Positions 21,995-52,023 of a stretch of 64,000 bases of DNA are shown here, piece by piece (within the stretch, counting starts at the first letter, position 1; every line of letters begins with the position of its first letter). The DNA is from an uncultured Chthonomonas sp. (GTDB lineage Bacteria > Armatimonadota > Chthonomonadetes > Chthonomonadales > Chthonomonadaceae), in NCBI GenBank assembly GCA_903859705.1, contig CAIONQ010000144.1, forward strand, positions 1 to 64,000, in the 5' to 3' direction. The notes below the pieces were generated by a model, which was given only the letters and a program-made list of their open reading frames with translations, made no database searches and was not told where the DNA came from. The position numbers were made by a program, and so were the translations under genes.

Positions 21995-22456
21995 TTGTTA
22001 CGACTCCATCACGATTCTGCCCAAGTGAATTCTGGTGAATTACACCAACCTCCACATGATATTGCAACAGTTCTCACAAACACTGGGGCATCCCTTCCTA
22101 ATCTTGATGCACGATGTGCATTACAATTTCCGATTATTTCCTATTGAAAGGAAGATAGCGAAAGAAACGGTAAGCATGCGAAAACAGGCAGTGCAACCTA
22201 TGCGCACAATCCCAAACAATAATCGGCCAAAAGGTGGATGGTGCGAGAATTCACAAAGTGTATACTTGCATCAGATGAAACGAAGAGACGCGCTGCAAAC
22301 ACAGTGATCAACCTGCTGAGCGCGCGGACTACAAAGTAGCGGTAGTAACCGGTAGTCTACACAGTTTATTTCGCTGCGGAACTTATATAGGACCGCACTC
22401 AATTTCAAAACCCTGGCCGGGAAACTTAGCCCGCCCGAACGCATTTGGAGACAAAA
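21995..22456. other. Divergent intergenic region before the cytochrome cluster
   Basis: About 460 bases between the divergent GH42-like gene and the Cys-rich exported protein. No gene is convincing. It contains a Rex-like site (22239-22256), a GGTAGT-N4-GGTAGT direct repeat (near 22340) and a possible -10 TATATA near 22384. No riboswitch pattern was recognised. Confidence 0.4.
22239..22256 (+). promoter_or_regulatory. Candidate Rex operator upstream of the cytochrome cluster
   Basis: TGGTGCGAGAATTCACAA fits the Rex consensus TTGTGAA-N4-TTCACAA in all seven positions of the right half and four of seven in the left. It lies 200 bp before the first gene of the cluster. The same right half-site occurs before rex and before the siroheme gene in this window. 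Confidence 0.35.
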
Positions 22457-23122
22457 ATGAAACGCAACATCAAAAGTGGCCTGATCGCAGTCGTACTCGC
22501 AGCCCTGTGCGCATCGGTAGCAGGAACTGTTCGCGCCGATGGCGCGGCACCTACTGGCAGCCTGTGGCAGATCGGCAAAGATGCTGGCAAGGTAGAGATT
22601 GTTCTCCCGGGCCAGGCAGCTCCGGTGGTTACTTCCGTAACCGACTCAACAATTTTCGCAGGCATTTGCCTGGACTGCATGCTCCCGCTGGAGTTCAAAC
22701 CGGCTCAGAGTGGTAAGAACTGTGCAGTTTGCGGTTGCGCAGTAAGCAACGCAGCTTGCATCGTAGGTAAGGCAGTTAAGGATGGTACATGGCAGTCGAT
22801 GCTGAAAATGCTGCCGCATGGCGTCGGCCTGGTACCAACCTATGTTGAAGCCGGAAAGCCTGAGAGCGGCCTCAAGAAGCTGGTAGTTAACCTCCGTGCA
22901 GTTGTTCTGCCGGTATCCGGACTGGATGGCCAAACGCCGGATCAGCTACTGGGCCTGGTTAAGGCAATTGGCGGAACCAAGACAGAGTTGCTTGACGGCG
23001 GCAAAGTACTGGCTATTGCACTGAAGGGCGACTACACCTTCGACAAGGCAACAAAGCTTGAGAAAGCAATTGTTGGTGCAAGCGGCAAGATCGGCGTACC
23101 AGAAGCCCCGAAAGCCCAGTAA
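22457..23122 (+). CDS. Exported protein with paired CxxC motifs, unknown function
   Basis: Predicted 221 residues. It has a signal peptide (GLIAVVLAALCASVAGTVRA), then a central zinc-ribbon or rubredoxin-like Cys cluster (CLDC ... CAVCGC ... AAC, about residues 72-105) and a C-terminal alpha/beta region (KGDYTFDKATKLEKAIVG) like a small metal- or redox-associated domain. No CxxCH heme motif is present. The ATG at 22457 follows TTGGAGACAAAA. I do not recognise a named family. It opens the same-strand run of cytochrome genes, so a periplasmic redox or metal-handling role in that system is an inference. Confidence 0.7.
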   Translation: MKRNIKSGLIAVVLAALCASVAGTVRADGAAPTGSLWQIGKDAGKVEIVLPGQAAPVVTSVTDSTIFAGICLDCMLPLEFKPAQSGKNCAVCGCAVSNAACIVGKAVKDGTWQSMLKMLPHGVGLVPTYVEAGKPESGLKKLVVNLRAVVLPVSGLDGQTPDQLLGLVKAIGGTKTELLDGGKVLAIALKGDYTFDKATKLEKAIVGASGKIGVPEAPKAQ

Positions 23123-23200: not shown

Positions 23201-23297
23201 TAACAACAGATACCCCACTCGGTCCGTTACTATTTAAGCCATTTAGAAATACTCAGCGCGTTTGCGGGCCATCAGCGAAGAAGTGTGGCGGTGCAGT

Positions 23298-24713
23298 ATG
23301 TTCACAGACCAGAAGCAAGATACCGGCCGTACAGATGGGCCGCACTACCCAGATTACTCTCAGTGTTGCAAACGCCGTGTGGCCCGCTTGCTAAAGCACC
23401 GCTCCGTAAGCGCACCAGCAGCCCTGTTGCTTACAGCTACTCTTGGGGGCGTCGCAGCCTGCTGGCATATGGCGGCCGGCCAGGTGATTTACGTAGATGA
23501 TGCGCGCACACAGTATATACAGGGAACTCCCCGAGACTCGGTAACACGGCTGCAGGCAGACCTTGAACGAGGAAAAGTACATCTCTCTTTCGATCCGAAA
23601 TTTGGCTATCTGCCCGCGATCTTAAAAGCACTCAAAGTTTCTCCAACCAGCCAGGTTGTGGTTTTTTCAAAAACCAGTGTCCAAAAGGACCTGATATCTC
23701 CAGAGAACCCACGATCGATCTATTTTAACGATGGCACCTACGTTGGATACGTTCCGGATGGCAAAGCGCTTGAGTTATGCACTACTGACCCCTACCTTGG
23801 TGCCGTGTATTACACATTGCTGCAACGCGAAGTTCCCAAACCAAAATTTTTCAGAACGATTGATGCCTGCCTAGAGTGCCATGCTGATAAGGCGTTGAAG
23901 CACCTGCCACGGCACCTTATGTTCTCAACGATATGCAATTCTGAAGGAGCTGTAGCAGAGGGAACACAGCCCTTTGATACTTCTGATGCAACTTCGCTCA
24001 GTAAACGGTTCGGTGGTTGGTTTGTAAGTGGAAGCACCAGTGGGCAGAAGCATATGGGCAATGCGTTTGCCACGCTCAAAGGCGCCGAAGTTACCCTTGA
24101 CAGAAAAGTGGCGGGAGATGTTAAGAACCTGGCCAGCCTTTACGATACGAAGCTAATGCTAACACCTTACAGCGATATTGCCGCCCTGATGACGATGACG
24201 CATCAGTACCACGTTCAGAATCAGATCAACGAGGTTACATATCGAGTGAACAGTGCTATGGCTTTTGAACGTCTATATCCACGCGCGGCGCCAATGAACG
24301 GGGCTACTGGCCATTCGGTATCAACTGACAAGACCGTAAAGGAAGTTTGCGACTTACTTTTGCGCGTGATGCTCTTTACCGACGAGGCAAAGATTCCAGC
24401 TCCGATTACCGGTACAAGTGGGTTCAGAGAAGCCTTCGAGAAGGCTGGCCCATTCGATAGCAAAGGCAGATCGCTGAGGCAACTGAATCTGAAAACCCGG
24501 TTGCTGAAATACCCCTTTAGCTTCCTGATCTACTCAGATAATTTCGACGCAATTCCGGTGCCGGCAAAGCGCTACTTTTACCGGCGATTGCACCGAGTTC
24601 TGGATGGTAAGGATCATGATCCCGCGTTTGGACGCCTCACTGCAGACGAGCGGGCGGCCATTCGGGAGATACTGCGGGCAACAAAGAAAGACTTCCGAAT
24701 TTTCGGGGGCTGA
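23298..24713 (+). CDS. Membrane-anchored single-heme cytochrome c family protein
   Basis: Predicted 471 residues. A basic N-terminal tail (KRRVARLLKHR) precedes a hydrophobic segment ending LGGVAACW, which could be a membrane anchor or a lipobox. One CxxCH motif is visible: DACLECHADKALKHLP. Around it are conserved-looking blocks (RSIYFNDGTYVGYVPDG, LYTLLQREVPKPKF-like, RFGGWFVSG, HMGNAF). I know similar single-heme proteins from planctomycete/verrucomicrobial-type genomes but no function. The start is uncertain: 23262 and 23298 are both possible, neither with a strong ribosome-binding site. It sits between the Cys-rich protein and the decaheme cytochrome. Confidence 0.65.
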   Translation: MFTDQKQDTGRTDGPHYPDYSQCCKRRVARLLKHRSVSAPAALLLTATLGGVAACWHMAAGQVIYVDDARTQYIQGTPRDSVTRLQADLERGKVHLSFDPKFGYLPAILKALKVSPTSQVVVFSKTSVQKDLISPENPRSIYFNDGTYVGYVPDGKALELCTTDPYLGAVYYTLLQREVPKPKFFRTIDACLECHADKALKHLPRHLMFSTICNSEGAVAEGTQPFDTSDATSLSKRFGGWFVSGSTSGQKHMGNAFATLKGAEVTLDRKVAGDVKNLASLYDTKLMLTPYSDIAALMTMTHQYHVQNQINEVTYRVNSAMAFERLYPRAAPMNGATGHSVSTDKTVKEVCDLLLRVMLFTDEAKIPAPITGTSGFREAFEKAGPFDSKGRSLRQLNLKTRLLKYPFSFLIYSDNFDAIPVPAKRYFYRRLHRVLDGKDHDPAFGRLTADERAAIREILRATKKDFRIFGG

Positions 24714-25039: not shown

Positions 25040-26137
25040 ATGAAAAACACAGGATCCTACAGACGATTTTTCCTGTATTCAATCCCGGTTACATTACTGG
25101 CCGGCCTGATCGTTGCATCCGTATTTGCAACCCCGGCCCCGCCAAAAACCAACGGGAAAGATACAGAGGCGAAGACCGCAAAAGCGGCCAAGCCAGCTAA
25201 GTTTCCGCTGAGCCTCTGGGCAACAGCCGATGAAGGCGATTATTCTGGCGGAAAGAACTGCACTAACTGCCACAAAACCCAGACCGATTCGTACGAGCGG
25301 TCTCCACACACCGTGTACATGAAAGATCCACACAATACAGTGGATAAGACCGGTTGTGAAGGGTGCCATGGCCCCAGCAAGAACCACGTAGCTCACCGCA
25401 AGGAAGAGGAAGGCCTCTACCAGAATGTTGTTAGCTACACGCACAGCACTCCAGAACAGATTGCTGCTTCTTGCTTACGGTGCCATCAGGATACAGTTAC
25501 GCAGAACCACTGGAAACGAACAGAGCACTCTCATGCAGGCGTTAGCTGCACGAGTTGCCATCAGATGCACTGGGCGGATCGCCTGGGCAAAGATCGCATC
25601 CGCGTAGCGCCAGATCAGAAGAATGATGCGCTTACCAACACCGTTGGCAAAGCACAGGTTGCTTCAGTATTCACAAACGCAGCGGCCCCCAAAGCACTAC
25701 TCAAATCCAATGAGGCCAACCTCTGCGGTTCCTGCCACCGCAAAGTGGGCGCAGAATTCCGAAACAACTTCCACCACCCGGTTCCCGAGGGGCGGCTGGT
25801 ATGTTCGGACTGCCACTCAGCCCACCCGAATCGTGACGACCGCAAGCTGATGCGCACTGCGAAGCAGGCATGTATAACATGCCATGCGGATGTTGCTGGC
25901 CCGTTTGTTTACGAGCATGATCCGGCATCGGATCTCACCGGCACGGGATGCCTCGAATGCCATAACCCGCATGGCTCATCGAACCCTGCCATTCTTAACT
26001 CCTTCACTCGCGGGCTGTGTATCAAGTGCCACACGGATAAGTCTGTTAATCACAATCCAGGCAGAAACTGCTGGGATTCTGGCTGCCACTCTGCAATCCA
26101 TGGTTCGAACCATGATCCGAGGTTCCTGCAGCGTTAA
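25040..26137 (+). CDS. DmsE/MtrA-family decaheme c-type cytochrome
   Basis: Predicted 365-residue exported multiheme cytochrome. After a signal anchor (SIPVTLLAGLIVASVFATPA) and a Lys/Ala-rich linker come nine CxxCH motifs (CTNCH, CEGCH, CLRCH, CTSCH, CGSCH, CSDCH, CITCH, CLECH, CIKCH) and a final CX4CH (CWDSGCH), i.e. ten potential hemes, matching the decaheme DmsE/MtrA/PioA family. Spaced distal His residues are visible (HTVY, HSHAG, HHPVP). Such cytochromes sit in the periplasm inside an outer-membrane barrel and pass electrons across it. The ATG at 25040 has GAGG six bases upstream; an earlier start at 24923 lacks a signal peptide. MtrB-type barrel gene follows after 68 bases. Confidence 0.92.
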   Translation: MKNTGSYRRFFLYSIPVTLLAGLIVASVFATPAPPKTNGKDTEAKTAKAAKPAKFPLSLWATADEGDYSGGKNCTNCHKTQTDSYERSPHTVYMKDPHNTVDKTGCEGCHGPSKNHVAHRKEEEGLYQNVVSYTHSTPEQIAASCLRCHQDTVTQNHWKRTEHSHAGVSCTSCHQMHWADRLGKDRIRVAPDQKNDALTNTVGKAQVASVFTNAAAPKALLKSNEANLCGSCHRKVGAEFRNNFHHPVPEGRLVCSDCHSAHPNRDDRKLMRTAKQACITCHADVAGPFVYEHDPASDLTGTGCLECHNPHGSSNPAILNSFTRGLCIKCHTDKSVNHNPGRNCWDSGCHSAIHGSNHDPRFLQR

Positions 26138-26205
26138 CAGTAATCCGGCACTCAGATCACACACATCAGTGCACGATCTGAACCTGAGCACATGAGGTTA
26201 TTCGA

Positions 26206-27960
26206 GTGAAAAACACAGACAAAACTCAGACAGCCAGCAGGATGCAGAGCTTTACAAAGGTCTTTGCCATCGCAGCACTGGCAACCATGTATACGCCAAT
26301 CAGGGCAGCAGCACAGTCTCCCTTTGATACAGCAGGCACACTTGGCTCTATTGCAGGAGCCGGTGCGTTTACTGTAGCTCAGGACGATGCGCCAGAGCCC
26401 CCACGCGCCCAGCCTAAAAGCAAGCTAGACCCGGCTACCTACCTGGTAGCGGAGGTAGGCTACGCGGACTGGAACGTTTCTGGAAGCAGAAACAAGTTTC
26501 GCCAGTACGCTACCGTCCCGGGCGGGTTCTTCCTTAAGGAACTAACTTACGTTCCTAAAATGGAAGATCCCGGTCAGTACGTCTTTACCTCTCTTAAAGG
26601 TATTGGCGGTGTGGACTATCGGGGCGATCTGGGACTGGTATACAACTATGGCGGCACACGCATTTCGGGCTACTTCTCAAACAGCAGCTTCTTTGAAGAT
26701 ACCAATGCTCCGGTAGGCGCAAGCAGTCGGCATTCTGCCGGGTTTGACCTCCGCCAGAATGTTACAAAGAACTTCTCGTTGGCTTACCGCTTCAAGAGCG
26801 ATAGCCAGGTAAACCGATACGAATCGCCCAATGCCGGTGAAAACCAGCATACACAGTATCAGGACATCAGTGCTGCCGGCAAGGTTGGTCCTGGTTATCT
26901 CAAACTCTCCAGTGCAAACTTGAGGTTTGAGGACAATACGGGCACATGGGTAAATTCCGACGTACAGACATTCGCAGGTTCTTACCTGTGGAATGTGAAC
27001 GATGGAATCGATCTTCAGGCCGGCTACTCACGCGCTAACATCGGCCAAACAGGAATGAAGGGCAGCCATATCGAGTCCTTTGCCCTGAACGGTGATGTAG
27101 CTATCGGCTCCGGTACAGACGTAAACCTTGCGATGCAGAACCGCCGCCTTTCAATGCCGAACACGCTGAACGATTATGTTAAGCATCAGGGCATTGAATC
27201 GATAAGCCTTTCCCAGCGATACAAATCCTGGCGAGGTTCCATCTCCCTGCGCCTGCAGGATGATGAGCGGCTGAACTACAGCCAGACTTACGTAGACGTG
27301 CCGAAGTGGAGTACCGTAGAAGGCCGCCTATCTGGCCGCGTACCCGGCGGACTGCGACTTACCGTTCGCGGATATACCCAGGCACTGATTGAGCAGCCCG
27401 GGTTCAACACAAACGATCCATCCAATCTTTATTGGACCGCGCGTGACTTCGCCGAGGGGCGCCTGGAAGGCGGGCATGACGATCTGAGCTACTACGCGGT
27501 TTACACCTACCGCTCCGATCGCAATGCAGCGCGCGCAGCAGAGGTAACAACCGGGCAGTACACGCTCGGAGCTACCTATCAGGTATCCCCCACCCTCAAC
27601 ATGTTCGCAGAGTACCATCATGAACTCTGGTCTGGTAAGGCCGCCATCACGGGTTACCCGTCTATCGGCAACTACCTCCCAGATGTAACCACCGGTATTT
27701 TGCAGCTTACGTACAATCCGAACAAACGTGCCTATCTCTCGTTAACCTATACGGGATTTGGTACTCGGAACGACAACCCGCTTATGCTCCCAGATGGGAA
27801 CACCCGCGGAACGTTTGTTACTATCAACGGTCGCTACAAGTTTAACCGTGGCTATGAGCTTGGTTTTATGGTGGCGCCGTGGACCTATCGTGACAATGTA
27901 GTAAACGCCATGAACTACAACGCTACTGTGTTTATGCTCACAGGAAGCACCCGGTTTTAG
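26206..27960 (+). CDS. MtrB/PioB-family outer-membrane beta-barrel (cytochrome sheath)
   Basis: Predicted 584-residue exported barrel. A signal peptide (FAIAALATMYTPIRAAAQ) and a short linker with QPKSKLDP lead into about 26 alternating, aromatic-rich strands (YLVAEVGYADWNVSG, GDLGLVYNYGG, NFSLAYRFKSD, SSANLRFEDN, ISLRLQDDERLNYSQ) and a final ATVFMLTGSTRF with the terminal Phe of outer-membrane proteins. Size and strand pattern fit MtrB/PioB, which ensheathe a decaheme cytochrome. The N-terminal CxxC of some MtrB proteins is absent. The GTG at 26206 has GAGGTTAT upstream, and the first bases repeat the leader of the decaheme gene. Confidence 0.88.
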   Translation: MKNTDKTQTASRMQSFTKVFAIAALATMYTPIRAAAQSPFDTAGTLGSIAGAGAFTVAQDDAPEPPRAQPKSKLDPATYLVAEVGYADWNVSGSRNKFRQYATVPGGFFLKELTYVPKMEDPGQYVFTSLKGIGGVDYRGDLGLVYNYGGTRISGYFSNSSFFEDTNAPVGASSRHSAGFDLRQNVTKNFSLAYRFKSDSQVNRYESPNAGENQHTQYQDISAAGKVGPGYLKLSSANLRFEDNTGTWVNSDVQTFAGSYLWNVNDGIDLQAGYSRANIGQTGMKGSHIESFALNGDVAIGSGTDVNLAMQNRRLSMPNTLNDYVKHQGIESISLSQRYKSWRGSISLRLQDDERLNYSQTYVDVPKWSTVEGRLSGRVPGGLRLTVRGYTQALIEQPGFNTNDPSNLYWTARDFAEGRLEGGHDDLSYYAVYTYRSDRNAARAAEVTTGQYTLGATYQVSPTLNMFAEYHHELWSGKAAITGYPSIGNYLPDVTTGILQLTYNPNKRAYLSLTYTGFGTRNDNPLMLPDGNTRGTFVTINGRYKFNRGYELGFMVAPWTYRDNVVNAMNYNATVFMLTGSTRF

Positions 27961-28014
27961 GTAACGGTTGGAAACCCTTCGACTAACCTATAACTAATTG
28001 AAAGGCGAAAGCAA

Positions 28015-29484
28015 ATGCTAAAGAAAAGCGGTTTGATGCTCACGTGCGCCGGCGCCCTCGTTTTCGTGGGTGTGCTCGTCGCCGCGGGCTGCGGAGGCGG
28101 CGGTCCGAATACCCCGCCCGTCTCAGCCCTGTCCACAGCGGCTCAGTTTGCAGCGCTCCTTCCTTCTCCCCAGAAGGCAGCAACAAAAGTTGGAGCAACA
28201 GCCTGTAAACCGTGCCATGCCACGGACTGTACCTCCCAGGCGCTAACGCGCCACTCTCAGGTATCGGTCGATTGCGAATCCTGCCATGGTCCAGGAAGCG
28301 TGCATGCGGCCAAGCCGGCACTTACAAATATCCTGCGCGGCATAGACTCCACAAATCCGATTGTGTGTGCTCAGTGCCATTCAGACGTAGTCAACGACTT
28401 CAAAAAGTCGATGCATGCACAGGTTGTTACCAGCGCCATCAGCAGTTCCAGCGCAACCTGTATGCGATGCCACAGCGATCCGTTCCGGACGTTGAATGTA
28501 GAGTCTCCTCTGGCCCATGGCCAGACGCCGGCTCAGGTGGATGCAGCCATAGTAGCTATCCCTGCCGCCACATTGCAGACATACCCGCCTGCAACCCATG
28601 CATCCGTTGCATGTGCAGGCTGCCACGATCCGCACCAGAACACTGCCAACCTTACCTCTGATAAGGAACAGTTCTACCTGCGTGCAGCAACATCAAGCAC
28701 GGACCTGAGCAGCGACCCGCCAGCAGCTACACCGGCACAGTACACAACCATCAACCACATCTGCGGTTCCTGCCACAACAACCGTGGTGGAGATCCATCA
28801 GACCAGGGCCTCGGTACCGGTACTTCCCGCCCGGCAGTGCACGAAGGTCCTGAGTACAACTTCCTGAACGGCAACGGCGGCGCAGAGGGTATCACTACCA
28901 CCGGCGGCTCCATCTATGCCTCTGGAACCACTGCACCAGCCCAGCGCACCAGTGCGCACGTGGCCGTACCCGACCAGTGCGTTACCTGCCATATGCCGAA
29001 CTCCCGCCACACGTTCACGGTTAGCCTGGATACCAGTTGCGCACCGTGCCACACGGCTACGGATGCAGCGGCCCGCGAGAATACCATTCAAACGCAGATT
29101 CAGAACGGCATGGCCGCTCTCCGCGCCAGAATGGCAAATTGGGCAGCTACCGTCGGCGCTGGCGGATTTAAGGACAGCACGGGAATAGCATGGGAATACT
29201 CCGGTAACATCCCGGCTACCGTTGTGGTACCGAAAACTCCGACATGGCAGTCTCAGATTCCGATCGAGATCAAGCGCGCTCGCCACAACTACTATCTGCT
29301 TCTGCTGGACCGCAGCTACGGCGTACACAACTTTGTATATGCTCAGTACCTGCTTAACCAGTCTAACGTTGGCCTCGACAAGTACGTTTCTCGCTCTGTC
29401 TCCATTCCGTCCAGCCGGGCGGCGGTGAAGGCGCAGCTAGCTGCGGATTACGAGAAAGCCAAAATGAGCCACGCAACCGAATAA
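28015..29484 (+). CDS. Octaheme c-type cytochrome lipoprotein (MtrC/OmcA-like position)
   Basis: Predicted 489 residues with a clear lipobox (LVAAGC, Cys26) followed by a Gly run. Eight CxxCH motifs are present: CKPCH, CESCH, CAQCH, CMRCH, CAGCH, CGSCH, CVTCH, CAPCH. The C-terminal helix region (RARHNYYLLLLDRSYGVHN then FVYAQYLL) resembles the tail of several multiheme reductases and storage cytochromes. Placed directly after the decaheme cytochrome and barrel, it occupies the position of the surface-exposed terminal cytochrome of Mtr-type conduits. Its sequence is not obviously MtrC or OmcA; that role is inferred from lipoprotein signal, heme number and context. GAAAGGCG precedes the ATG. 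Terminator follows at 29524. Confidence 0.85.
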   Translation: MLKKSGLMLTCAGALVFVGVLVAAGCGGGGPNTPPVSALSTAAQFAALLPSPQKAATKVGATACKPCHATDCTSQALTRHSQVSVDCESCHGPGSVHAAKPALTNILRGIDSTNPIVCAQCHSDVVNDFKKSMHAQVVTSAISSSSATCMRCHSDPFRTLNVESPLAHGQTPAQVDAAIVAIPAATLQTYPPATHASVACAGCHDPHQNTANLTSDKEQFYLRAATSSTDLSSDPPAATPAQYTTINHICGSCHNNRGGDPSDQGLGTGTSRPAVHEGPEYNFLNGNGGAEGITTTGGSIYASGTTAPAQRTSAHVAVPDQCVTCHMPNSRHTFTVSLDTSCAPCHTATDAAARENTIQTQIQNGMAALRARMANWAATVGAGGFKDSTGIAWEYSGNIPATVVVPKTPTWQSQIPIEIKRARHNYYLLLLDRSYGVHNFVYAQYLLNQSNVGLDKYVSRSVSIPSSRAAVKAQLAADYEKAKMSHATE

Positions 29485-30956: not shown

Positions 30957-31727
30957 ATGAACACTTCGATTTTGCTGGATGCGCCAGTTGGCGCTCTTGT
31001 TGCGGAACGCCCTTCCCGCTCTTTGATATTCGAAGCTGCTGGAATTGATTACTGCTGTGCAGGCTCATCCACGCTAAGGGCAGCGTGCGCTGTGAAGGGG
31101 CTTGACGCAGAGGTGATGGCCGCAAAGATTATTGATTTTGATAGCGTAACTTCCGAGCCCGAAGTAAGCTGGGTAACTGAGCCGCTAACGGCAATCTGCA
31201 ACCATATAGAGGCAACTCATCATGCGTTTCTGAAAGCTTCGCTGCCGCGGCTTCTTGGCCTTACCGAGAAGGTAAAACGGGCACATGGCACCGATGATCC
31301 TCGGCTTGTGACTCTGAATGCACTGTTTCAAAGATTTCACGATGAACTGACTGAGCACATGAACAAGGAAGAGTATGTACTCTTTCCTATGTGCCGTGCG
31401 CTGGATATGCAAGCAGTGCCATTGGTAGGCTCCGACAATGGCAACAGCCTGCCTTCAGGCAGCCCCGGCCCCGTGGATTTGCAGTGTTGCAGCATTCGCA
31501 CTCCCATCCGGGTGATGATGGAAGAGCATGATGATGCTGGAGCGGCTCTCGCCGAGATGCGGGCTCTAACAGATGGGTTCCGAGTTCCACTGCACGCGTG
31601 CCCCACCTACCGGGCAATGCTGCACGGTCTTTCTGAACTTGAACAGGATATGCATACTCATGTCCACCTTGAGAACAGTGTGTTATTCCCAAGAGCGTCA
31701 GAGAAGGCAGACACTACTGGCAGCTGA
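30957..31727 (+). CDS. ric: Iron-sulfur cluster repair di-iron protein (Ric/YtfE/ScdA)
   Basis: Predicted 256 residues. The N-terminal ScdA_N domain has the family's GIDYCCAGSSTLRAAC (usually YCCGG), and the C-terminal hemerythrin-like domain has ICNHIEATHHAFLKASLPRL, DELTEHMNKEEYVLFP, RVMMEEHDDAGAAL and DMHTHVHLENSVLFP, giving the His/Glu ligands for two irons. These proteins repair Fe-S clusters damaged by nitric oxide or oxidants in the cytoplasm. AAGGAG precedes the ATG. Monocistronic, with a dyad-rich promoter that suggests stress-inducible expression. Its neighbourhood with cytochrome genes fits anaerobic or NO-exposed metabolism. Confidence 0.92.
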   Translation: MNTSILLDAPVGALVAERPSRSLIFEAAGIDYCCAGSSTLRAACAVKGLDAEVMAAKIIDFDSVTSEPEVSWVTEPLTAICNHIEATHHAFLKASLPRLLGLTEKVKRAHGTDDPRLVTLNALFQRFHDELTEHMNKEEYVLFPMCRALDMQAVPLVGSDNGNSLPSGSPGPVDLQCCSIRTPIRVMMEEHDDAGAALAEMRALTDGFRVPLHACPTYRAMLHGLSELEQDMHTHVHLENSVLFPRASEKADTTGS

Positions 31728-31761: not shown

Positions 31762-32709
31762 TTATTCCGTTGAAAATGGTGAATCCGGTTTAGAGCCAAC
31801 CGCCAGCACGGATTCAAAAAATGGTGGCTCTGCCGCACGGTCTACTGTGGAAGCCTCGCGCATTGCAAACCCTGCGATGCGCAGCATTTCCATCAGTTCT
31901 GCAAGCGAGAAACCGGGCCACAGATCGGCGTAAAGATCCCGCACCTCATCGATATCATGTTTTAACAGATCAAGAATTATTAGCCTGCCTCCAGGCTTCA
32001 ACACCCGGTACGATTCGCGTAGTGCTGTTTGTGGGTGAATGGCGTGGTGCAGTGCCTGATGGATGAGCACGAGATCGACACTGGACTCAGCAATCGGTAA
32101 ATCTTCCATGTCCCCCTGACGATATTCAAGGTTCTCGATGCCATTACGGCGGGCGAGCCCCACGCCATACTCAACCATTTTGGGTGAAGCATCTACTGCA
32201 ATCACTTTTTTAGCTCGCTGTGCAAGCATTAATGAGAGCGTGCCCTCCCCTGCTCCTAAATCTGCTATTACCAATGGCGGCAAAAGCTTTAGTAGCGCCT
32301 CTGAAAGTGCCTTCCAACTACGCCCGGGCACATAGCTGCGCCCAAACTTGCCAGCCAGCTCATCAAAGTAGCCGCGAAGGTGGTCTTTACGGCGGCTCAA
32401 AATCAGGTTGAGCGCCAGATCATCCTGAACGGACTCTGGCATCTCAGCTGCAGTACGCTCAATAGCATCAGCAACAATTGATTCCTCTTTTGCAGCGGGT
32501 GTAAGGTGATAAAGGCTGCGTTGCCCCTGCTTGCGCACCTCCACAAAGCCTGCACTCCGCAGCTGCGATAGCTGCATCGAGATCCGGCTCTGGCCCATTC
32601 CCAGAATCTCTTGCAGATCTGCAACACTTAGTTCTTCACGCGCAAGCAAACGCAGCAGTCGCAGCCTACCTGCATCGCTTAGAATTCTCAGAGACGTTAA
32701 TAGATCCAT
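31762..32709 (-). CDS. ArsR-family regulator fused to SAM methyltransferase domain (SahR-like)
   Basis: Predicted 315 residues. The N-terminal winged helix (residues 1-85) has LRLLRLLAREELSVADLQEI and RISMQLSQLRSAGFVEVRKQ. Residues about 140-300 form a class I methyltransferase fold: IADLGAGEGTLSLMLAQ (motif I), KVIAVDASPKM (motif II), DLVLIHQALHHAIHPQTALR, LKPGGRLIILDLL. The same fusion, known as SahR, controls the S-adenosylmethionine/S-adenosylhomocysteine cycle in Proteobacteria, where SAH binding to the methyltransferase-like domain changes DNA binding. Here it is divergent from ahcY, the gene that hydrolyses SAH, which supports the same role. No catalytic function need be assumed. Confidence 0.85.
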   Translation of the reverse strand: MDLLTSLRILSDAGRLRLLRLLAREELSVADLQEILGMGQSRISMQLSQLRSAGFVEVRKQGQRSLYHLTPAAKEESIVADAIERTAAEMPESVQDDLALNLILSRRKDHLRGYFDELAGKFGRSYVPGRSWKALSEALLKLLPPLVIADLGAGEGTLSLMLAQRAKKVIAVDASPKMVEYGVGLARRNGIENLEYRQGDMEDLPIAESSVDLVLIHQALHHAIHPQTALRESYRVLKPGGRLIILDLLKHDIDEVRDLYADLWPGFSLAELMEMLRIAGFAMREASTVDRAAEPPFFESVLAVGSKPDSPFSTE

Positions 32710-32796: not shown

Positions 32797-34224
32797 ATGA
32801 CTGCAGTTGCTAATGAAACCCTGCCCTACAAAGTCGCTGATATGGCTCTGGCGAGCTGGGGCCGCAAAGAGATAACCATTGCCGAGCAGGAGATGCCCGG
32901 CTTGATGTCGATCCGAAAGAAATATGCAGCCACCCGCCCCCTGGATGGCGTGCGTATTACTGGATCGCTACATATGACTATTCAGACCGCAGTTCTGATT
33001 GAAACTCTGGTAGACCTTGGCGCAATTGTGCGCTGGGCAAGCTGCAACATCTTCTCCACCCAGGATCATGCCGCGGCGGCCATTGCTGCCACTGGCGTGC
33101 CGGTATTTGCCTGGAAGGGCGAAACTCTGGAAGAGTACTGGTGGTGTACAGATCAGGCGCTCTCCTTCCCGGGCGGCAAGGGCCCGCAGCTGATCGTAGA
33201 CGACGGCGGCGATGCCACCCTGCTGATCCACAAGGGCTACGAGCTTGAGAACGGTAACGAGACCTGGGTGAATAGCCCATCTGGAAGCCACGAAGAATCG
33301 GTTATTAAAGCGCTGCTTAAGAGCGTTTATGCCGAAACTCCAAAACGGTGGAACGGTGTTGTTGCAGATTGGCGTGGAGTTTCAGAAGAAACAACCACCG
33401 GTGTGCACCGTTTATACAAAATGCAGGAGAACGGTGAGCTGCTGGTACCTGCCATCAATGTTAACGATTCCGTTACCAAATCTAAATTTGATAACCTTTA
33501 TGGCTGCCGCGAATCGCTTGCCGATGGAATTAAGCGAGCCACCGATGTGATGCTCGCTGGTAAAGTAGCTGTTGTTTGCGGTTATGGCGATGTTGGCAAG
33601 GGCTCTGCCCAGAGCCTGCGTGGCCTCGGCGCCCGCGTAATCGTTACCGAGATCGACCCCATCAATGCCCTGCAGGCAGCGATGGAAGGCTACGAAGTAA
33701 CCACTGTTGAGGATACCCTTGGCACTGGTGACATCTACGTAACCTGCACCGGCAACGTGGATATCCTTACTTACGAGCACCTCTCCGCAATGAAGGATCA
33801 GGCCATTGTGTGTAACATTGGCCACTTCGACAACGAGATACAGGTTGATCGGCTGAACACCGCAGAAGGCGTGGTAAAGCTGAACATTAAGCCACAGGTA
33901 GATCAGTACACCTTCCCCAATGGCAGCAGTATATTCCTGCTTGCCGAAGGCCGCCTGGTAAACCTTGGTTGCGCAACTGGCCACCCGAGCTTCGTTATGT
34001 CTAACAGCTTCTCTAACCAGACTCTGGCGCAGATTGATCTCTGGGCCAACCGAGACAGGTATGAGGTGGGAGTTTATACGCTTCCGAAGCGACTGGACGA
34101 AGAAGTTGCACGCCTTCATCTGGAGAAGATCGGCGTAAAGCTTACCCGCCTCTCTGAAAAGCAGGCATCGTACATTGGCGTGGAGCAGGACGGACCTTAT
34201 AAGCCAGACACCTACAGATACTAA
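32797..34224 (+). CDS. ahcY: S-adenosylhomocysteinase
   Basis: Predicted 475-residue cytoplasmic NAD-dependent enzyme that splits S-adenosylhomocysteine into adenosine and homocysteine. Visible signatures: [20 protein letters not shown] near the N-terminus, the NAD-binding [31 protein letters not shown], and the conserved C-terminus KPDTYRY that reaches the neighbouring subunit. Length is normal for the family. GGAGG lies ten bases before the ATG. It is single-gene, divergent from the SahR-like regulator, and ends in a strong terminator. Confidence 0.97.
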
Positions 34225-35204: not shown

Positions 35205-35639
35205 CTACTTAACTTCCGGCGCATGTGTTTCTGGCTCGGGATGGCCGTGGTGGCACATAAAACAGGTAGCCTGCTTATCAACAGCCTTAAAGCTCTTGTT
35301 AAGCTTACCAGTCATCAGTATCATTTCCCTGGCCTGGTTTTTCACCTTGTTGGTATCTTTTTCGTAACCTGTACGTTTGCCATCCGGGCCAACCGTAGTA
35401 TCGTGGCAGAAGCTACACTTCACATTTAGCGCAGTGTTGTACTCATGCATTACAGGTATTAACTTATCTGCAGGCAAGTCTTTTAGGACTTTGATATTCT
35501 TGAACTTCTTACCAGAGAGCTCAACGGATTTCGCCGGCTCCTGCGCATTACTGCTGTGTGCAACGCACACAGCCCCCAAAAGCCCCGCTGCCAGCGCTCC
35601 TAATACTGCAACTCGTACAGAGCGTACTTCCATTCCCAT
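35205..35639 (-). CDS. Diheme cytochrome related to photosynthetic reaction-centre cytochrome c subunit
   Basis: Predicted 144-residue exported protein. A signal peptide (RVAVLGALAAGLLGAVCVAH, cut before QEPA) is followed by FKNIKVLKDLPADKLIPVM, the first heme site VKCSFCHD, KNQAREMILMTGKLNKSF and the second heme site TCFMCHHGHPEPE. This is the pattern of the CytoC_RC family, much shorter than true four-heme reaction-centre subunits and common in non-phototrophs, where its role is unknown. GAGGAAGG lies upstream of the ATG at 35639 (35633 is an alternative). Single gene with its own terminator. A small periplasmic electron carrier is a reasonable inference. Confidence 0.8.
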   Translation of the reverse strand: MGMEVRSVRVAVLGALAAGLLGAVCVAHSSNAQEPAKSVELSGKKFKNIKVLKDLPADKLIPVMHEYNTALNVKCSFCHDTTVGPDGKRTGYEKDTNKVKNQAREMILMTGKLNKSFKAVDKQATCFMCHHGHPEPETHAPEVK

Positions 35640-35735
35640 TGTGCACTTTCCTTCCTCAGTTATCCGGTTACAACTCCAAAGCAACTTGCTTTGTTGCTAA
35701 CAGGTTGCATATTACCCGCTACGGGCACAAATGGA

Positions 35736-45116: not shown

Positions 45117-45134
45117 GAACAATCAAACGCTTTG

Positions 45135-45250
45135 CTGGAAAGTGCAACTGGCGTTCACAGGGATACCCTGGGGGAGCGCTTTCCAGAGGAAATGTCGCAC
45201 GCCTGGGCGCAATGCCGATCTCAATACGGATCTGCGTTACCGCCCGGGCG
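45135..45250 (+). promoter_or_regulatory. ZTP (pfl) riboswitch upstream of purH
   Basis: Perfect 8-bp P1 stem (CTGGAAAG 45135-45142, CTTTCCAG 45179-45186). It encloses AACTGGCG, a short CAGGG-ATA-CCCTG hairpin (45158-45170) and GGGGGAGCG, the hallmark 5' domain. The 3' domain follows as CGCCTGGGCG (45200-45209), matching the conserved CCGCCUGGGC of pfl RNAs. That same segment can pair along ten bases with CGCCCGGGCG (45241-45250), giving an alternative fold that ligand binding would disturb. ZTP derives from ZMP (AICAR), the substrate of PurH, so the context is exact. The first gene controlled is purH at 45294. Confidence 0.85.
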
Positions 45251-48398: not shown

Positions 48399-49145
48399 TT
48401 GACCGCAAGCAATAACGCCAAGGTACCCGTTCCTACTCTGGAACGGCTGGCAACCTATCTACGGTTTTTGATTGATCTTGATCAATCAAACATTGAAACC
48501 ATCTCTTCTGCAGAGGTTGAGCGGCAAACTGGCATCAATGCGGCACAGTTTCGCAAAGACCTATCGTATTTCTTTGCCTCGTTTGGAGAGTTTGGCAAGC
48601 CCGGCGTTGGCTACAACGTGAAGGATTTGCAGAACCGAATAGCACGTATACTCAAGATTGACAATGAGCAACGTGTTGTGCTGGTAGGTGCTGGCAACCT
48701 GGGCTCTGCTCTGGTTGGTTACCCTGGCCTTAAAGAGCACAGGCTGAACCTGGTTGCCGTGTTTGACAATAACTACGGTAAGATTGGCCGGCCACTATGG
48801 AACCTGGAGATTCAGGACGTAATGCGGCTTAAAGAGGCCAATCAGCGTCTGGGCGCTCGTATTGCCATACTGGCAGTGCCGGCGATTGCCGCACAGCAGG
48901 TAACAGATCTATTGGTGGATGCGGGCATTCATGCCATACTAAATTTCGCACCACTTATGCTGCGGGTTCCATCCCATGTGTTTGTTCGGAACGTATCTTT
49001 TCTTCAAGAACTGGCGGTACTCTCTTACCATCTATCCGCAGAGGAGCCTTCTCAACTCCCTCTGGATCAGATTCCTCTTCCCGGTTTAGAGCCGGTTATT
49101 GATGCAGAATCCGCAGTTGGTGATACCCCTGCCGCAGATGCCTGA
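48399..49145 (+). CDS. rex: Redox-sensing transcriptional repressor Rex
   Basis: Predicted 248 residues. The winged-helix domain (residues 10-80) has TLERLATYLRFLIDLDQSN and AAQFRKDLSYFFASFGEFGK, then GVGYNVKDL. The Rossmann NADH-sensing domain begins RVVLVGAGNLGSALVGYPGL. The C-terminal swapped helix (VSFLQELAVLSYHL) is followed by about 30 extra acidic/proline residues not present in typical ~210-residue Rex proteins. Rex leaves its operators when NADH/NAD+ rises and so controls respiratory and fermentative genes. TTG start with AGAGG eight bases upstream. It heads the siroheme/heme/cytochrome-assembly operon, a known Rex-hemA arrangement in Actinobacteria. Confidence 0.95.
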   Translation: MTASNNAKVPVPTLERLATYLRFLIDLDQSNIETISSAEVERQTGINAAQFRKDLSYFFASFGEFGKPGVGYNVKDLQNRIARILKIDNEQRVVLVGAGNLGSALVGYPGLKEHRLNLVAVFDNNYGKIGRPLWNLEIQDVMRLKEANQRLGARIAILAVPAIAAQQVTDLLVDAGIHAILNFAPLMLRVPSHVFVRNVSFLQELAVLSYHLSAEEPSQLPLDQIPLPGLEPVIDAESAVGDTPAADA

Positions 49146-49163
49146 TCGATAAACATTTCACAA
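49146..49163 (+). promoter_or_regulatory. Candidate second Rex operator in the rex-siroheme gap
   Basis: TCGATAAACATTTCACAA matches the Rex right half perfectly (7/7) and the left half at four of seven positions. It begins at the rex stop and lies 31 bases before the next gene, where it could tune an internal promoter or be fortuitous. Confidence 0.3.
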
Positions 49164-49193
49164 TCCGTAAATAAAGGGACGTGTACGTCTAAT

Positions 49194-49844
49194 ATGTCGC
49201 GGTACTATCCAGTTATGCTTCGGATAGAAAATCGCTCGTGCCTGATAGTGGGCGGCGGAGCGGTTGGGGTTCGCAAGGCGGAAGCGCTATTGCTGGCCGG
49301 AGCGGAGGTAACGGTGGTTTCCATCGATGCCAGCCATGAGCTGGCAGACCTGGAAGCGACTGGCAAGATCCGGGTTATGCACGAGCCATACCACGCAAAT
49401 ATGCTGGACGGTATGGACCTGGTTTTTGCCGCCACAAACAATACGGCAGTCAACGCGCAGATAACACAGGAAGCACAGGCCGCTGGCCTGCTCGTAAACA
49501 GTGCAGATGCACCAGATACAGGAAGCTTTATTGTGCCAGCCACGGTTAGGCGTGGTGATCTGTGCCTATCTATATCTACGGGCAGCGCCAGTCCCAAGCT
49601 GGCGGCGCGCATTCGGCGAGAGTTGGAAGCGCGATTTCCCGAAAACTACGCACTGTATATAGAGGTGCTTGCCACTATGCGCAACGCCGTAAAGCAGATG
49701 ACAGAAAGCCCCGAACAGCGTGGTCGAGCTCTGGAAGCGCTGTTGGATCACGAGGCAGATATCCGCATCGCCATCGAGGCTGATGGTGCGGAAGCCGCCC
49801 TGGAAAAGGCACGAAGCATCGCAGTGCGTGCAATGGAGCAGTAA
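49194..49844 (+). CDS. Precorrin-2 dehydrogenase/sirohydrochlorin ferrochelatase (CysG N-terminal/Met8 type)
   Basis: Predicted 216 residues. The NAD fold starts RYYPVMLRIENRSCLIVGGG then AVGVRKAEALLLAGAEVTVV; DLVFAATNNTAVNAQITQ and FIVPATVRRGDLCLSISTG are conserved family segments, SPKLAARIRRELEARFP leads into the dimerisation domain. It converts precorrin-2 to siroheme in the cytoplasm, feeding sulfite/nitrite reductases or alternative heme synthesis. It lies between rex and hemA with short gaps. Ribosome-binding site is weak. Confidence 0.93.
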   Translation: MSRYYPVMLRIENRSCLIVGGGAVGVRKAEALLLAGAEVTVVSIDASHELADLEATGKIRVMHEPYHANMLDGMDLVFAATNNTAVNAQITQEAQAAGLLVNSADAPDTGSFIVPATVRRGDLCLSISTGSASPKLAARIRRELEARFPENYALYIEVLATMRNAVKQMTESPEQRGRALEALLDHEADIRIAIEADGAEAALEKARSIAVRAMEQ

Positions 49845-49846
49845 TT

Positions 49847-51172
49847 TTGCACCTTGTACTTGTTGGATTAAGCCATCATGCCGCACCTATATCTGTGCGA
49901 GAACGCATCAGCTGCGCCGAACATCGGCTTCCAGATGCGCTTTCGCATGCAGCCCAGGTGCCAGGCGTGCGCGAAATCCTGATACTTTCAACATGTAACC
50001 GTATGGAAGTTTATGGAGTGGTAGAAGGGCCCGATCTGGGTTACGCCTACTCAGCAATTGCACGCCACCTCTCCGCTTTCCATAACGTGCCAGAAGCTCA
50101 GTTTGATGCCTACCTTTACCGTAAAGCAGAGCACGAGGCAATTTCGCACCTGATGCGTGTGGCATCTGGCCTGGATTCCTTAGTGCTTGGCGAAGCTCAG
50201 ATATTGGGGCAGGTGCGCACCGCTCTACGCAATGCTCAGGAATCAGGAGTGGTTGGCGGCGTACTTTCTCACCTGTTTCAGCATGCGTTAAACAGTGGCA
50301 AACGCGTTCAGCAAGAAACCGGGCTGGGTAAGGGCGCATTTTCTATTGGCCATGCGGCGGTAGACCTCGCAGCGCGAATCTTTTCCTTACCCGAAGCAAC
50401 CGTACTGCTACTTGGCGCCGGGAAAATGAGCCTACTTACCGCACGGCATTTAGCAGCAAATGGCGTAAACCTTATAGTTGTGGCAAACCGCACACATGAA
50501 AAGGCCGAGAAGATGGCCTCAAATCTGGGTGGCAAAGCGATACGTTATGAAGATTTCCCAGACATGCTTGCGCGCACCGATATCGTAATTGCATCTACTT
50601 CCGCCCCTCACCCAATTATTCGCAGAGAGATGCTGCAGCCGGTACTTAAGAAACGACGCGGGAAGCCCCTGTTTTTGATCGATATTGCGGTGCCTCGCGA
50701 CATTGATGCCGACGTTGCAGATATGGACAACGTCTTTCTGTATAACATCGATCACCTGCAAGAGGTTGTTGCTCACAGAGTGCGTGGGCGCGCGGTAGAA
50801 GCGCGGCAAGCCGAAGTGATTGCTACATCTGAAACTCAGGAGTTCTTGAACTGGTACCGGGCACGAGAAGCTGCGCCCGTAATTAAGCAACTGCGCGGCC
50901 GCCTTGACGACTATGCCCGCAAGCGCCTGGAGATATTGAGATCTAATCTGAGCCCGCAAAGCGATAAGGATTGGGCACAAATTGAGTTACAAATTCACTC
51001 CCTTATGGATGAAGTTGCACGCGAGCCAATATTGAGAATGAAACGCGCCAGCAAAGAAGCTGCTGCTCCCGCGGGCGCAGCGCCTACTCGGTATGACCTG
51101 CTTTCAGCAGCCCGCGAAATATTTGGCCTGGGTGTTGACGATATTGCACCAGCAAGAGAGGAGACACTGTGA
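49847..51172 (+). CDS. hemA: Glutamyl-tRNA reductase
   Basis: Predicted 441-residue enzyme that makes glutamate-1-semialdehyde from Glu-tRNA, the first committed step of tetrapyrrole synthesis. Family signatures: MHLVLVGLSHHAAPISVRER, catalytic ILSTCNRMEVYG (Cys near residue 50), SGLDSLVLGEAQILGQVR, NADPH-fold VLLLGAGKMSLLTARHL, and RGKPLFLIDIAVPRDID. TTG start two bases after the upstream stop with GGAG in the preceding gene's end. The downstream ccsA-like gene overlaps by four bases (GTGA). This places heme supply and cytochrome c assembly in one operon. Confidence 0.97.
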   Translation: MHLVLVGLSHHAAPISVRERISCAEHRLPDALSHAAQVPGVREILILSTCNRMEVYGVVEGPDLGYAYSAIARHLSAFHNVPEAQFDAYLYRKAEHEAISHLMRVASGLDSLVLGEAQILGQVRTALRNAQESGVVGGVLSHLFQHALNSGKRVQQETGLGKGAFSIGHAAVDLAARIFSLPEATVLLLGAGKMSLLTARHLAANGVNLIVVANRTHEKAEKMASNLGGKAIRYEDFPDMLARTDIVIASTSAPHPIIRREMLQPVLKKRRGKPLFLIDIAVPRDIDADVADMDNVFLYNIDHLQEVVAHRVRGRAVEARQAEVIATSETQEFLNWYRAREAAPVIKQLRGRLDDYARKRLEILRSNLSPQSDKDWAQIELQIHSLMDEVAREPILRMKRASKEAAAPAGAAPTRYDLLSAAREIFGLGVDDIAPAREETL

Positions 51173-52023
51173 CAACTCTGCTTACCGCCCTTGCTCTGGC
51201 GCTCTTTCTTGGCTCAGCAGTTTGCTACAGCGCCGTGCTGTTCCTGGATGCCCCATCGGCTCCGGCGCCACTGGGGCCATTAACGGCATCTTCGCGGCCA
51301 TCCCGTTACTCTCGAGTTCTGCTGTATGCTGGTCTGTTAACGCTCTTTGCCAGCATTGGAGCAAACTGCATTGCTTCGGGTCACTCTCCATTTGCCAGTG
51401 AATACGGCACCATGCTTGTAGGTGCTTTTGGCACGGCTGCAGTGTTTGCCGTGTGGGATCGAAAAACGCGCATGCCTGCAGTTGGTGGAGTTGCCATGCT
51501 CATGTCGTGCCTGGCGCTAACTGGAGCGCTGCTGCGCACACACTCTCACGTTGCAAAAGATCCACTGATTAGAAACCCGCTTGTAACCGTTCATGTGCTT
51601 GCCATTGTTGCCGCGTATGGGCTGATTCTTGTGGCCGCCGCAAGCGCTGGCATGTATCTGATGCAAGACAGGCAGCTTAAATCTCGCTCCGGGGCGCCGT
51701 TCTTGCGCCTGCTGCCCCCATTAACACGCCTGGACACGATCGTATTTCAATGCGTTTCTTACGCATTTCCATTGTTAACACTTAGTTTGGTGGTTATCCC
51801 CATGATCTTCCGTGGAGATATGAAAGAGCCTGCCAGTGCCTGGTTTGTAGATTCAAGGTTCGTATCAACGGCAATTCTGTGGTTTCTGTTCAGCACATAT
51901 CTGGGTGGAAGGCTGATTATTGGCTGGCGTGGAGTGAGGCTCCAGGTAATACTACTGATAGGTATTGCCATTGCTTTTGCGGCCTATGCCCTCCCAACGG
52001 CCTCTGCGCATCGGTTTAATTGA
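51169..52023 (+). CDS. CcsA/HemX-family cytochrome c assembly membrane protein
   Basis: Predicted 284-residue integral membrane protein with about eight helices (e.g. LLTALALALFLGSAVCYSAV, LLYAGLLTLFASIGANCIAS, VTVHVLAIVAAYGLILVAAA). The block NPLVTVHVLAIVAAYG with GMYLMQDRQLKSR and the helix after LTRLDTIVFQ match HemX/CcsA. Related proteins handle heme for cytochrome c synthesis or stabilise GluTR (HemX). The classical WWD motif is not clear, so HemX-type function is as likely as CcsA. GTG start overlaps the hemA stop. Confidence 0.85.
   Translation: MTTLLTALALALFLGSAVCYSAVLFLDAPSAPAPLGPLTASSRPSRYSRVLLYAGLLTLFASIGANCIASGHSPFASEYGTMLVGAFGTAAVFAVWDRKTRMPAVGGVAMLMSCLALTGALLRTHSHVAKDPLIRNPLVTVHVLAIVAAYGLILVAAASAGMYLMQDRQLKSRSGAPFLRLLPPLTRLDTIVFQCVSYAFPLLTLSLVVIPMIFRGDMKEPASAWFVDSRFVSTAILWFLFSTYLGGRLIIGWRGVRLQVILLIGIAIAFAAYALPTASAHRFN

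Follow-up and report, generated by a model that had tools for sequence, protein, structure and literature searches.

A conserved gene trio in Armatimonadota resembling a porin-cytochrome conduit: an MtrA-like cytochrome, an MtrB-fold barrel and an octaheme lipoprotein

Described conduits and the composition of the trio

MtrCAB of Shewanella (PDB entry 6R2Q) shares with the three consecutive genes studied here a decaheme MtrA homologue, a 26-strand barrel of the same fold (predicted in our case) and an adjacent gene for a multiheme outer-membrane lipoprotein. However, the porin of the trio does not score against PF11854, its terminal cytochrome has eight hemes and an OcwA/OmhA-like predicted fold while MtrC is a decaheme protein, the last heme site of its MtrA homologue is of the CX4CH type, and its gene order is A-B-C. 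PioAB of Rhodopseudomonas and MtoAB of Sideroxydans have the core of an MtrA-type decaheme cytochrome and a 26-strand barrel in common with the trio. Their porins belong to a different sequence family, however, and their operons lack a surface multiheme cytochrome, whereas the third gene of the trio encodes an octaheme lipoprotein.

The closest folds to this lipoprotein, including the NrfA-family C-terminal helix bundle, are those of OcwA of Thermincola potens (6I5B) and of the undecaheme cytochrome of Carboxydothermus ferrireducens (6QVM), which we take to be OmhA. The three proteins differ in heme number (nine in OcwA, eleven in OmhA, eight here), and OcwA and OmhA belong to monoderm cells without porin partners, whereas the protein described here is predicted to be lipid-anchored and proposed as partner of an outer-membrane conduit. 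The Pcc conduit of Geobacter (OmbB-OmaB-OmcB) also unites a porin, a periplasmic and an outer-membrane cytochrome in one cluster. However, its periplasmic and surface cytochromes carry eight and 12 hemes, compared to ten and eight in the trio, which moreover contains an MtrA homologue; Pcc has been reported to lack sequence homology to MtrAB (PMC5566968).

The trio lies on the + strand of the window, by which we mean the whole stretch of 64,000 nucleotides analyzed; its source assembly comprises 6.24 Mb in 179 contigs and is 95.7% complete. Arranged head to tail are the genes for P0001 (25040-26137, 365 aa), an MtrA-like decaheme c-type cytochrome and the proposed periplasmic or trans-barrel wire, P0002 (26206-27960, 584 aa), a predicted 26-strand outer-membrane barrel that might sheathe this cytochrome, and P0003 (28015-29484, 489 aa), an octaheme lipoprotein and putative OcwA/OmhA-like terminal cytochrome. 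The intergenic gaps amount to 68 bp and 54 bp, respectively. Since gene order and heme sites are kept in dozens of genomes, this arrangement is not due to chance. We consider it very probable that the trio is a real and conserved porin-cytochrome conduit of distinct composition, which works like MtrCAB. This reading is based on gene content, gene order, conservation and predicted folds, all of which we could establish. No experiment has been performed and the formation of a complex is inferred; the structures were predicted as single chains only, without a model of the complex.

Properties of the three proteins

P0001 contains nine CXXCH motifs and, as its last heme site, one CX4CH motif (CWDSGCH, 26069-26089, + strand), which aligns with the CLNCH of the last MtrA heme in the PDB sequence match. 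All 40 homologues of alignment A1 share the CX4CH form of this site, with C344, C349 and H350 invariant. The ten motif histidines are likewise invariant, and at least ten further histidines are conserved (11 counted, ten of them fully invariant), being possible distal ligands. Judged from the alignment, the conserved histidines would be enough for ten bis-His hemes, the ligation itself being inferred. All 40 homologues match the DmsE/MtrA model TIGR03508. P0001 itself reaches 180.4 bits (E 4.5e-53) and stays just below the curated cut-off of 192.2 bits, while several trio homologues exceed it when the matching stretches are joined (202 bits in G061, for example). The top PDB sequence match of P0001 is MtrA, chain A of 6R2Q (E 6.5e-30); the molecule name given for this match, cystathionine beta-synthase, is presumably a mislabel. 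In 6R2Q, heme A10 of MtrA meets heme C5 of MtrC (PMC7198977). The CX4CH motif aligns with A10, and the unusual site is therefore located at the presumed docking position of the terminal cytochrome; that it matters for docking is an inference.

The gene for P0002 starts with GTG, preceded by GAGG at a distance of about 10 bp, and the protein possesses a signal-like stretch at the N-terminus and a terminal phenylalanine. Searched alone, the P0002 sequence had no match in Pfam, NCBIfam or the PDB, and the profile of its family gave only a weak match to an unrelated porin. PF11854 (MtrB/PioB) matched neither P0002 nor any of 50 homologues at E ≤ 1, while the positive controls, MtrB from Photobacterium (locus L171) and a porin from another Armatimonadota locus (L081), scored 511 and 345 bits. 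Profile comparison by hhalign gave no significant relation to the same Photobacterium MtrB (probability 6%) and a weak one, confined to one segment, to Bryobacterales porins adjoining MtrA (59%). The AlphaFold2 model (alignment A2, mean pLDDT 87), on the other hand, has exactly 26 strands. MtrB (6r2q_B) was the first match both in Foldseek (TM 0.69 by query, next ≤ 0.50) and in VIA (Z 26.3, rmsd 2.6 over 494 residues, next Z 17.1). Two traits reported for MtrB (PMC7198977) recur in the model, namely that strands 2-4 are short and that strand 1 is separated from strand 2 by a small helix. Porins of this type are encoded beside an MtrA homologue in nearly all loci that we read. Because of the 26 modeled strands and the best fold match, and in the absence of any PF11854 score, P0002 is, as far as a predicted structure allows, MtrB-like by fold and position, while its sequence places it outside the MtrB/PioB family.

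P0003 possesses eight CXXCH motifs, and in 37 homologues the eight motif histidines are accompanied by eight further conserved histidines. A lipobox (AAGC, 28081-28092, + strand) predicts acylation of Cys26, which is invariant in the 37 homologues and followed at the +2 position by glycine in P0003 and by glycine or alanine, never by aspartate, in the whole set. The sorting rule for aspartate at +2 comes from E. coli. By this rule alone, the lipobox fits a sorting to the outer membrane; the leaflet, and with it the exposure of the octaheme protein at the surface, is inferred.

The model of P0003 is of moderate confidence (pLDDT 77) and was built without hemes. Its C-terminal helices (residues 348-454, 29056-29376, + strand; individually 348-379, 409-432 and 440-454) are predicted to form a helix bundle of the NrfA/OcwA type with a GVHN motif. 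The best fold matches were 6QVM (Z 16.8) and OcwA (Z 16.4, rmsd 2.7 over 288 residues), ONR and NrfA reaching at most 13.6. The family profile also matched 6QVM (70 bits) and 6I5B (66 bits) above MccA, an IhOCC-type protein and NrfA, and this alignment covers the heme-free C-terminal segment (YYFI-RDGSYGVHN) outside the heme motifs. According to model and profile, the closest solved relatives of P0003 are OmhA and OcwA of the NrfA/octaheme superfamily, ahead of ONR and NrfA. Both come from metal reducers (PMC6703420, PMC7829351). OcwA has been described as a terminal reductase at the cell surface that belongs to the NrfA family instead of being a shortened MtrC (PMC6703420); for OmhA, a role as terminal reductase at the surface is presumed (PMC7829351). 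The number of heme sites in P0003 is not that of MtrC or OmcA (eight versus ten or eleven), nor does P0003 have the features of the nitrite reductase NrfA, as a CXXCK heme is missing and there are eight hemes instead of five. Chains of the MtrC type are absent among the Foldseek and VIA matches listed for P0003, by which an MtrC fold is not excluded. PF22113 does not match P0003 at E ≤ 0.01; it matches 15 of the 37 homologues, possibly via the heme motifs.

In the mechanism that we propose, the decaheme P0001 would be a heme wire seated within the P0002 barrel, and homology with MtrA would place its last heme, the CX4CH site, at the outer end. From this exit heme, electrons would pass to the octaheme lipoprotein anchored at the outer membrane, which would exchange them with an external partner. 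The outward direction appears likeliest, namely the extracellular reduction of a mineral, a humic substance, another cell or a small oxidant.

The original prediction, made from the DNA sequence of the window, had described a complete three-gene conduit of a ten-heme DmsE/MtrA-type cytochrome, an MtrB/PioB-type barrel and an eight-heme lipoprotein not recognizable as MtrC or OmcA. The three-gene composition, with its order kept in dozens of genomes, is borne out. The same applies to the first gene, its score below the TIGR03508 cut-off notwithstanding, and to the third, which has the eight motifs and the lipobox and whose closest folds are OmhA and OcwA. For the barrel only the fold holds, whereas membership in the PF11854 family does not. 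Two outcomes had been named in advance as refuting the idea, a P0002 that does not fold as a barrel of about 26 strands or cannot take up the decaheme cytochrome, and a lipoprotein predicted to stay in the inner membrane; neither of them occurred, although the fit of the cytochrome inside the barrel is only inferred, without a model.

Distribution and ancestry of the trio

Armatimonadota are mostly uncultured bacteria. Homologues of the P0002 porin were detected in 63 of 291 Armatimonadota genomes and the octaheme family in 61 (E ≤ 1e-40). Both occur together in 56 genomes, the porin alone in seven, the octaheme family alone in five and neither in 223 (Fisher p 6e-46, uncorrected for relatedness), and all five octaheme-only genomes have, in the same order, an MtrA homologue and a porin that has diverged (54-140 bits against alignment A2). 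The order MtrA-porin-octaheme is found nearly throughout the loci read. With the octaheme gene following the porin in nearly all of them, the trio is not a two-component system of the PioAB/MtoAB type. There are MtrA-porin pairs without a nearby octaheme gene in two genomes (G039 and G172), a porin without either partner, on a short contig, in G040, an additional MtrA-porin pair in G041 and a second octaheme gene in between in family f19. The trio is also present in the single-contig genomes G125, G134 and G135 and in CP054189.1.

Among the matches listed, the closest named relatives of P0001 are MAGs of Armatimonadota, Chthonomonadaceae and Fimbriimonadaceae among them. In a tree built from 53 MtrA sequences, for which no root was inferred, the trio proteins form one side of a branch with an SH-aLRT support of 99, and the window groups with its own genus and family. 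This placement is as expected of vertical descent, with the reservation that the support inside the clade is uneven. The porin profile found no match in 297 Acidobacteriota genomes at 1e-10, without a positive control within this phylum. CX4CH last hemes also occur in genomes labelled as UBP7 and Planctomycetales, with other porins, and the Planctomycetota-labelled matches were rejected as members of the trio family because their porins differ. Two of these UBP7- and Planctomycetales-labelled MAGs (loci L118 and L133) encode enlarged MtrA homologues with 12 CXXCH motifs and a final CX4CH, adjoining unrelated barrels without a Pfam match. It is likely, albeit not proven, that the conduit is restricted to Armatimonadota, since a scan of 85,000 species could be judged only among the matches listed.

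A locus from another Armatimonadota family (L081, G217:C1, 5751-8943, - strand) resembles the trio in that an MtrA homologue lies beside a barrel in the same phylum. However, this MtrA is a classical one with ten CXXCH motifs, its porin is a true PF11854 member (345 bits) and there is no relative of P0002 or P0003 alongside; two kinds of conduit thus exist in the phylum.

On balance we favor, without regarding it as settled, the view that the trio represents a separate conduit lineage that is old within Armatimonadota and consists of an MtrA-like wire, a barrel of MtrB fold unrelated in sequence, a CX4CH exit heme and, in place of MtrC, a cytochrome of the NrfA/OcwA line at the surface. If true, the OcwA/OmhA systems of Gram-positives would have their counterpart in a diderm lineage, and surface terminal reductases of the NrfA/octaheme superfamily would also serve porin conduits. 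The original prediction had considered an Armatimonadota-like window with a possibly separate lineage, and had suggested a phylogeny of the MtrA homologues and a search across Armatimonadota genomes as checks. The named relatives of P0001 agree with the assignment to the phylum. Both checks were carried out, and the single MtrA clade together with the 56 genomes supports a distinct lineage, which is, however, widespread in the phylum and not peculiar to this genome.

In the open literature (subscription papers and preprints were outside the scope) we found no earlier description of the trio. The only related statements are the annotation of an MtoA in a single Armatimonadota MAG from the Katase hot spring (PMC9671151) and a mention of multiheme cytochromes, not further specified, in a second one (PMC11788075). 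A survey of MtrCAB from 2022 (PMC8805035) and other conduit surveys, including PMC5566968, list no Armatimonadota. The original prediction had known of no described conduit in this phylum, which holds to this extent and needs to be qualified by the MtoA annotation. Current annotation overlooks the conduit, because its porin does not score against PF11854 and its third protein is not MtrC. If our reading is correct, a whole phylum of mostly uncultured bacteria from soil, freshwater, hot springs and wastewater would be able to exchange electrons with the outside, and two worlds of surface cytochromes would be joined, MtrCAB of Gram-negatives and OcwA/OmhA of Gram-positives. The porin, the octaheme family and the CX4CH exit heme can serve as search profiles for metagenomes.

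Direction of electron flow and genomic surroundings

The direction of transfer, the substrate and the delivery of electrons by the quinone pool are all inferred. A fusion of a multiheme cytochrome c and a cytochrome b561 is encoded near the trio in nine loci of the Fimbriimonadaceae type, and has the architecture of CbcL, a quinol oxidoreductase of Geobacter (PMC9129911). Genes for cytochrome maturation of the CcmF type are found near the trio in 23 loci, mostly of the same type, and a gene of the NapC/NirT type in one (L043 of G141). In the genome of the window, no quinol dehydrogenase of the NapC/NirT type was found over the cut-off, the cytochrome inventory being partial. Judged from sequence features, locus L168 of this genome holds a gene cluster for alternative complex III, next to which lie genes for the assembly of a heme-copper oxidase; alternative complex III is no more than a candidate for the inner-membrane partner of the conduit. 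A large chain of RuBisCO was not found in this genome. From this absence and from the resemblance to known systems, we infer that electrons are probably transferred outward.

The window comes from an assembly of 179 contigs, and one could suspect an artefact of binning or assembly, or an isolated case of horizontal transfer from Proteobacteria or Acidobacteria. This is extremely improbable in view of the many genomes with the trio, among them the single-contig chromosomes, of the well-supported MtrA clade with the window nearest to its own genus and family, and of the porin not being found in the Acidobacteriota genomes at the threshold used. It is also conceivable that the octaheme protein is an outer-membrane lipoprotein facing the periplasm and feeding the MtrA homologue from inside, so that the conduit would end at MtrA as in PioAB. 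The lipobox predicts outer-membrane sorting and is silent on the leaflet. However, the two closest structural relatives of P0003 are cell-surface cytochromes and the gene set fits the three-part logic of MtrCAB, which makes this arrangement quite doubtful.

An outward-facing P0003 might also be an enzyme that reduces a small oxidant such as nitrite or hydroxylamine via the conduit, similar to DmsEFAB, which reduces DMSO outside the cell. Its fold belongs to the NrfA/ONR/octaheme superfamily, and OcwA slowly reduces nitrite and hydroxylamine and has two open hemes despite enough histidines (PMC6703420). All eight hemes of P0003 are bound by CXXCH, though, without a catalytic CXXCK site, and the eight further conserved histidines could ligate all of them, which would leave no open heme; we regard such an enzyme as possible but unlikely. 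The same holds for a reversed flow, in which electrons from Fe(II), minerals or partner cells would be taken up as in PioAB and MtoAB and passed on to carriers in the periplasm and to an oxidase. In nature, both directions occur among MtrA homologues, as PioA and MtoA show in comparison to MtrA (PMC9671151), the pairs without a nearby third gene in G039 and G172 recall PioAB and MtoAB, and aerobic respiration is suggested by the genes for heme-copper oxidase assembly that adjoin alternative complex III. Against an uptake of electrons speak the missing RuBisCO large chain in this genome, the resemblance of P0003 to surface reductases and the CbcL-like module of the inner membrane that relatives encode close to the trio.

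Several genes were rejected as additional parts of the conduit. Other multiheme proteins of this genome (C36, C54, C17 and C105) are c554-like or carry seven hemes, lie away from the trio and do not belong to the octaheme family. Upstream of the trio, the genes at 22445-23122 and 23262-24713 were not included either, the latter because its position is kept only in the same genus (G043:C431), whereas it lies elsewhere in other genomes. It is located on the + strand and encodes a single-heme protein of 483 aa without a Pfam or NCBIfam match, whose relatives share 37-56% identity across the order and the phylum, several genomes having two copies.

Two genes downstream of the trio, a di-iron Fe-S cluster repair protein is encoded (30957-31727, + strand; RIC/ScdA, over the cut-off). 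It is followed by the gene for an ArsR-type regulator fused to a methyltransferase (31762-32709, - strand) and, divergently, by an S-adenosylhomocysteine hydrolase-like gene (32797-34224, + strand); this pair is perhaps involved in the control of the SAM cycle. A small protein with two hemes, related to the photosynthetic reaction-centre cytochrome, is encoded at 35205-35684 (- strand; NCBIfam c_type_nonphoto, over the cut-off). At 45134-45215 (+ strand), directly upstream of a purH-like gene at 45294, there is a ZMP/ZTP riboswitch (Rfam RF01750, 48.5 bits). The same contig also carries heme supply genes (48399-52023, + strand), which encode in a row a Rex-type regulator, a siroheme-type dehydrogenase, glutamyl-tRNA reductase and a cytochrome c assembly protein similar to CcsA/HemX.
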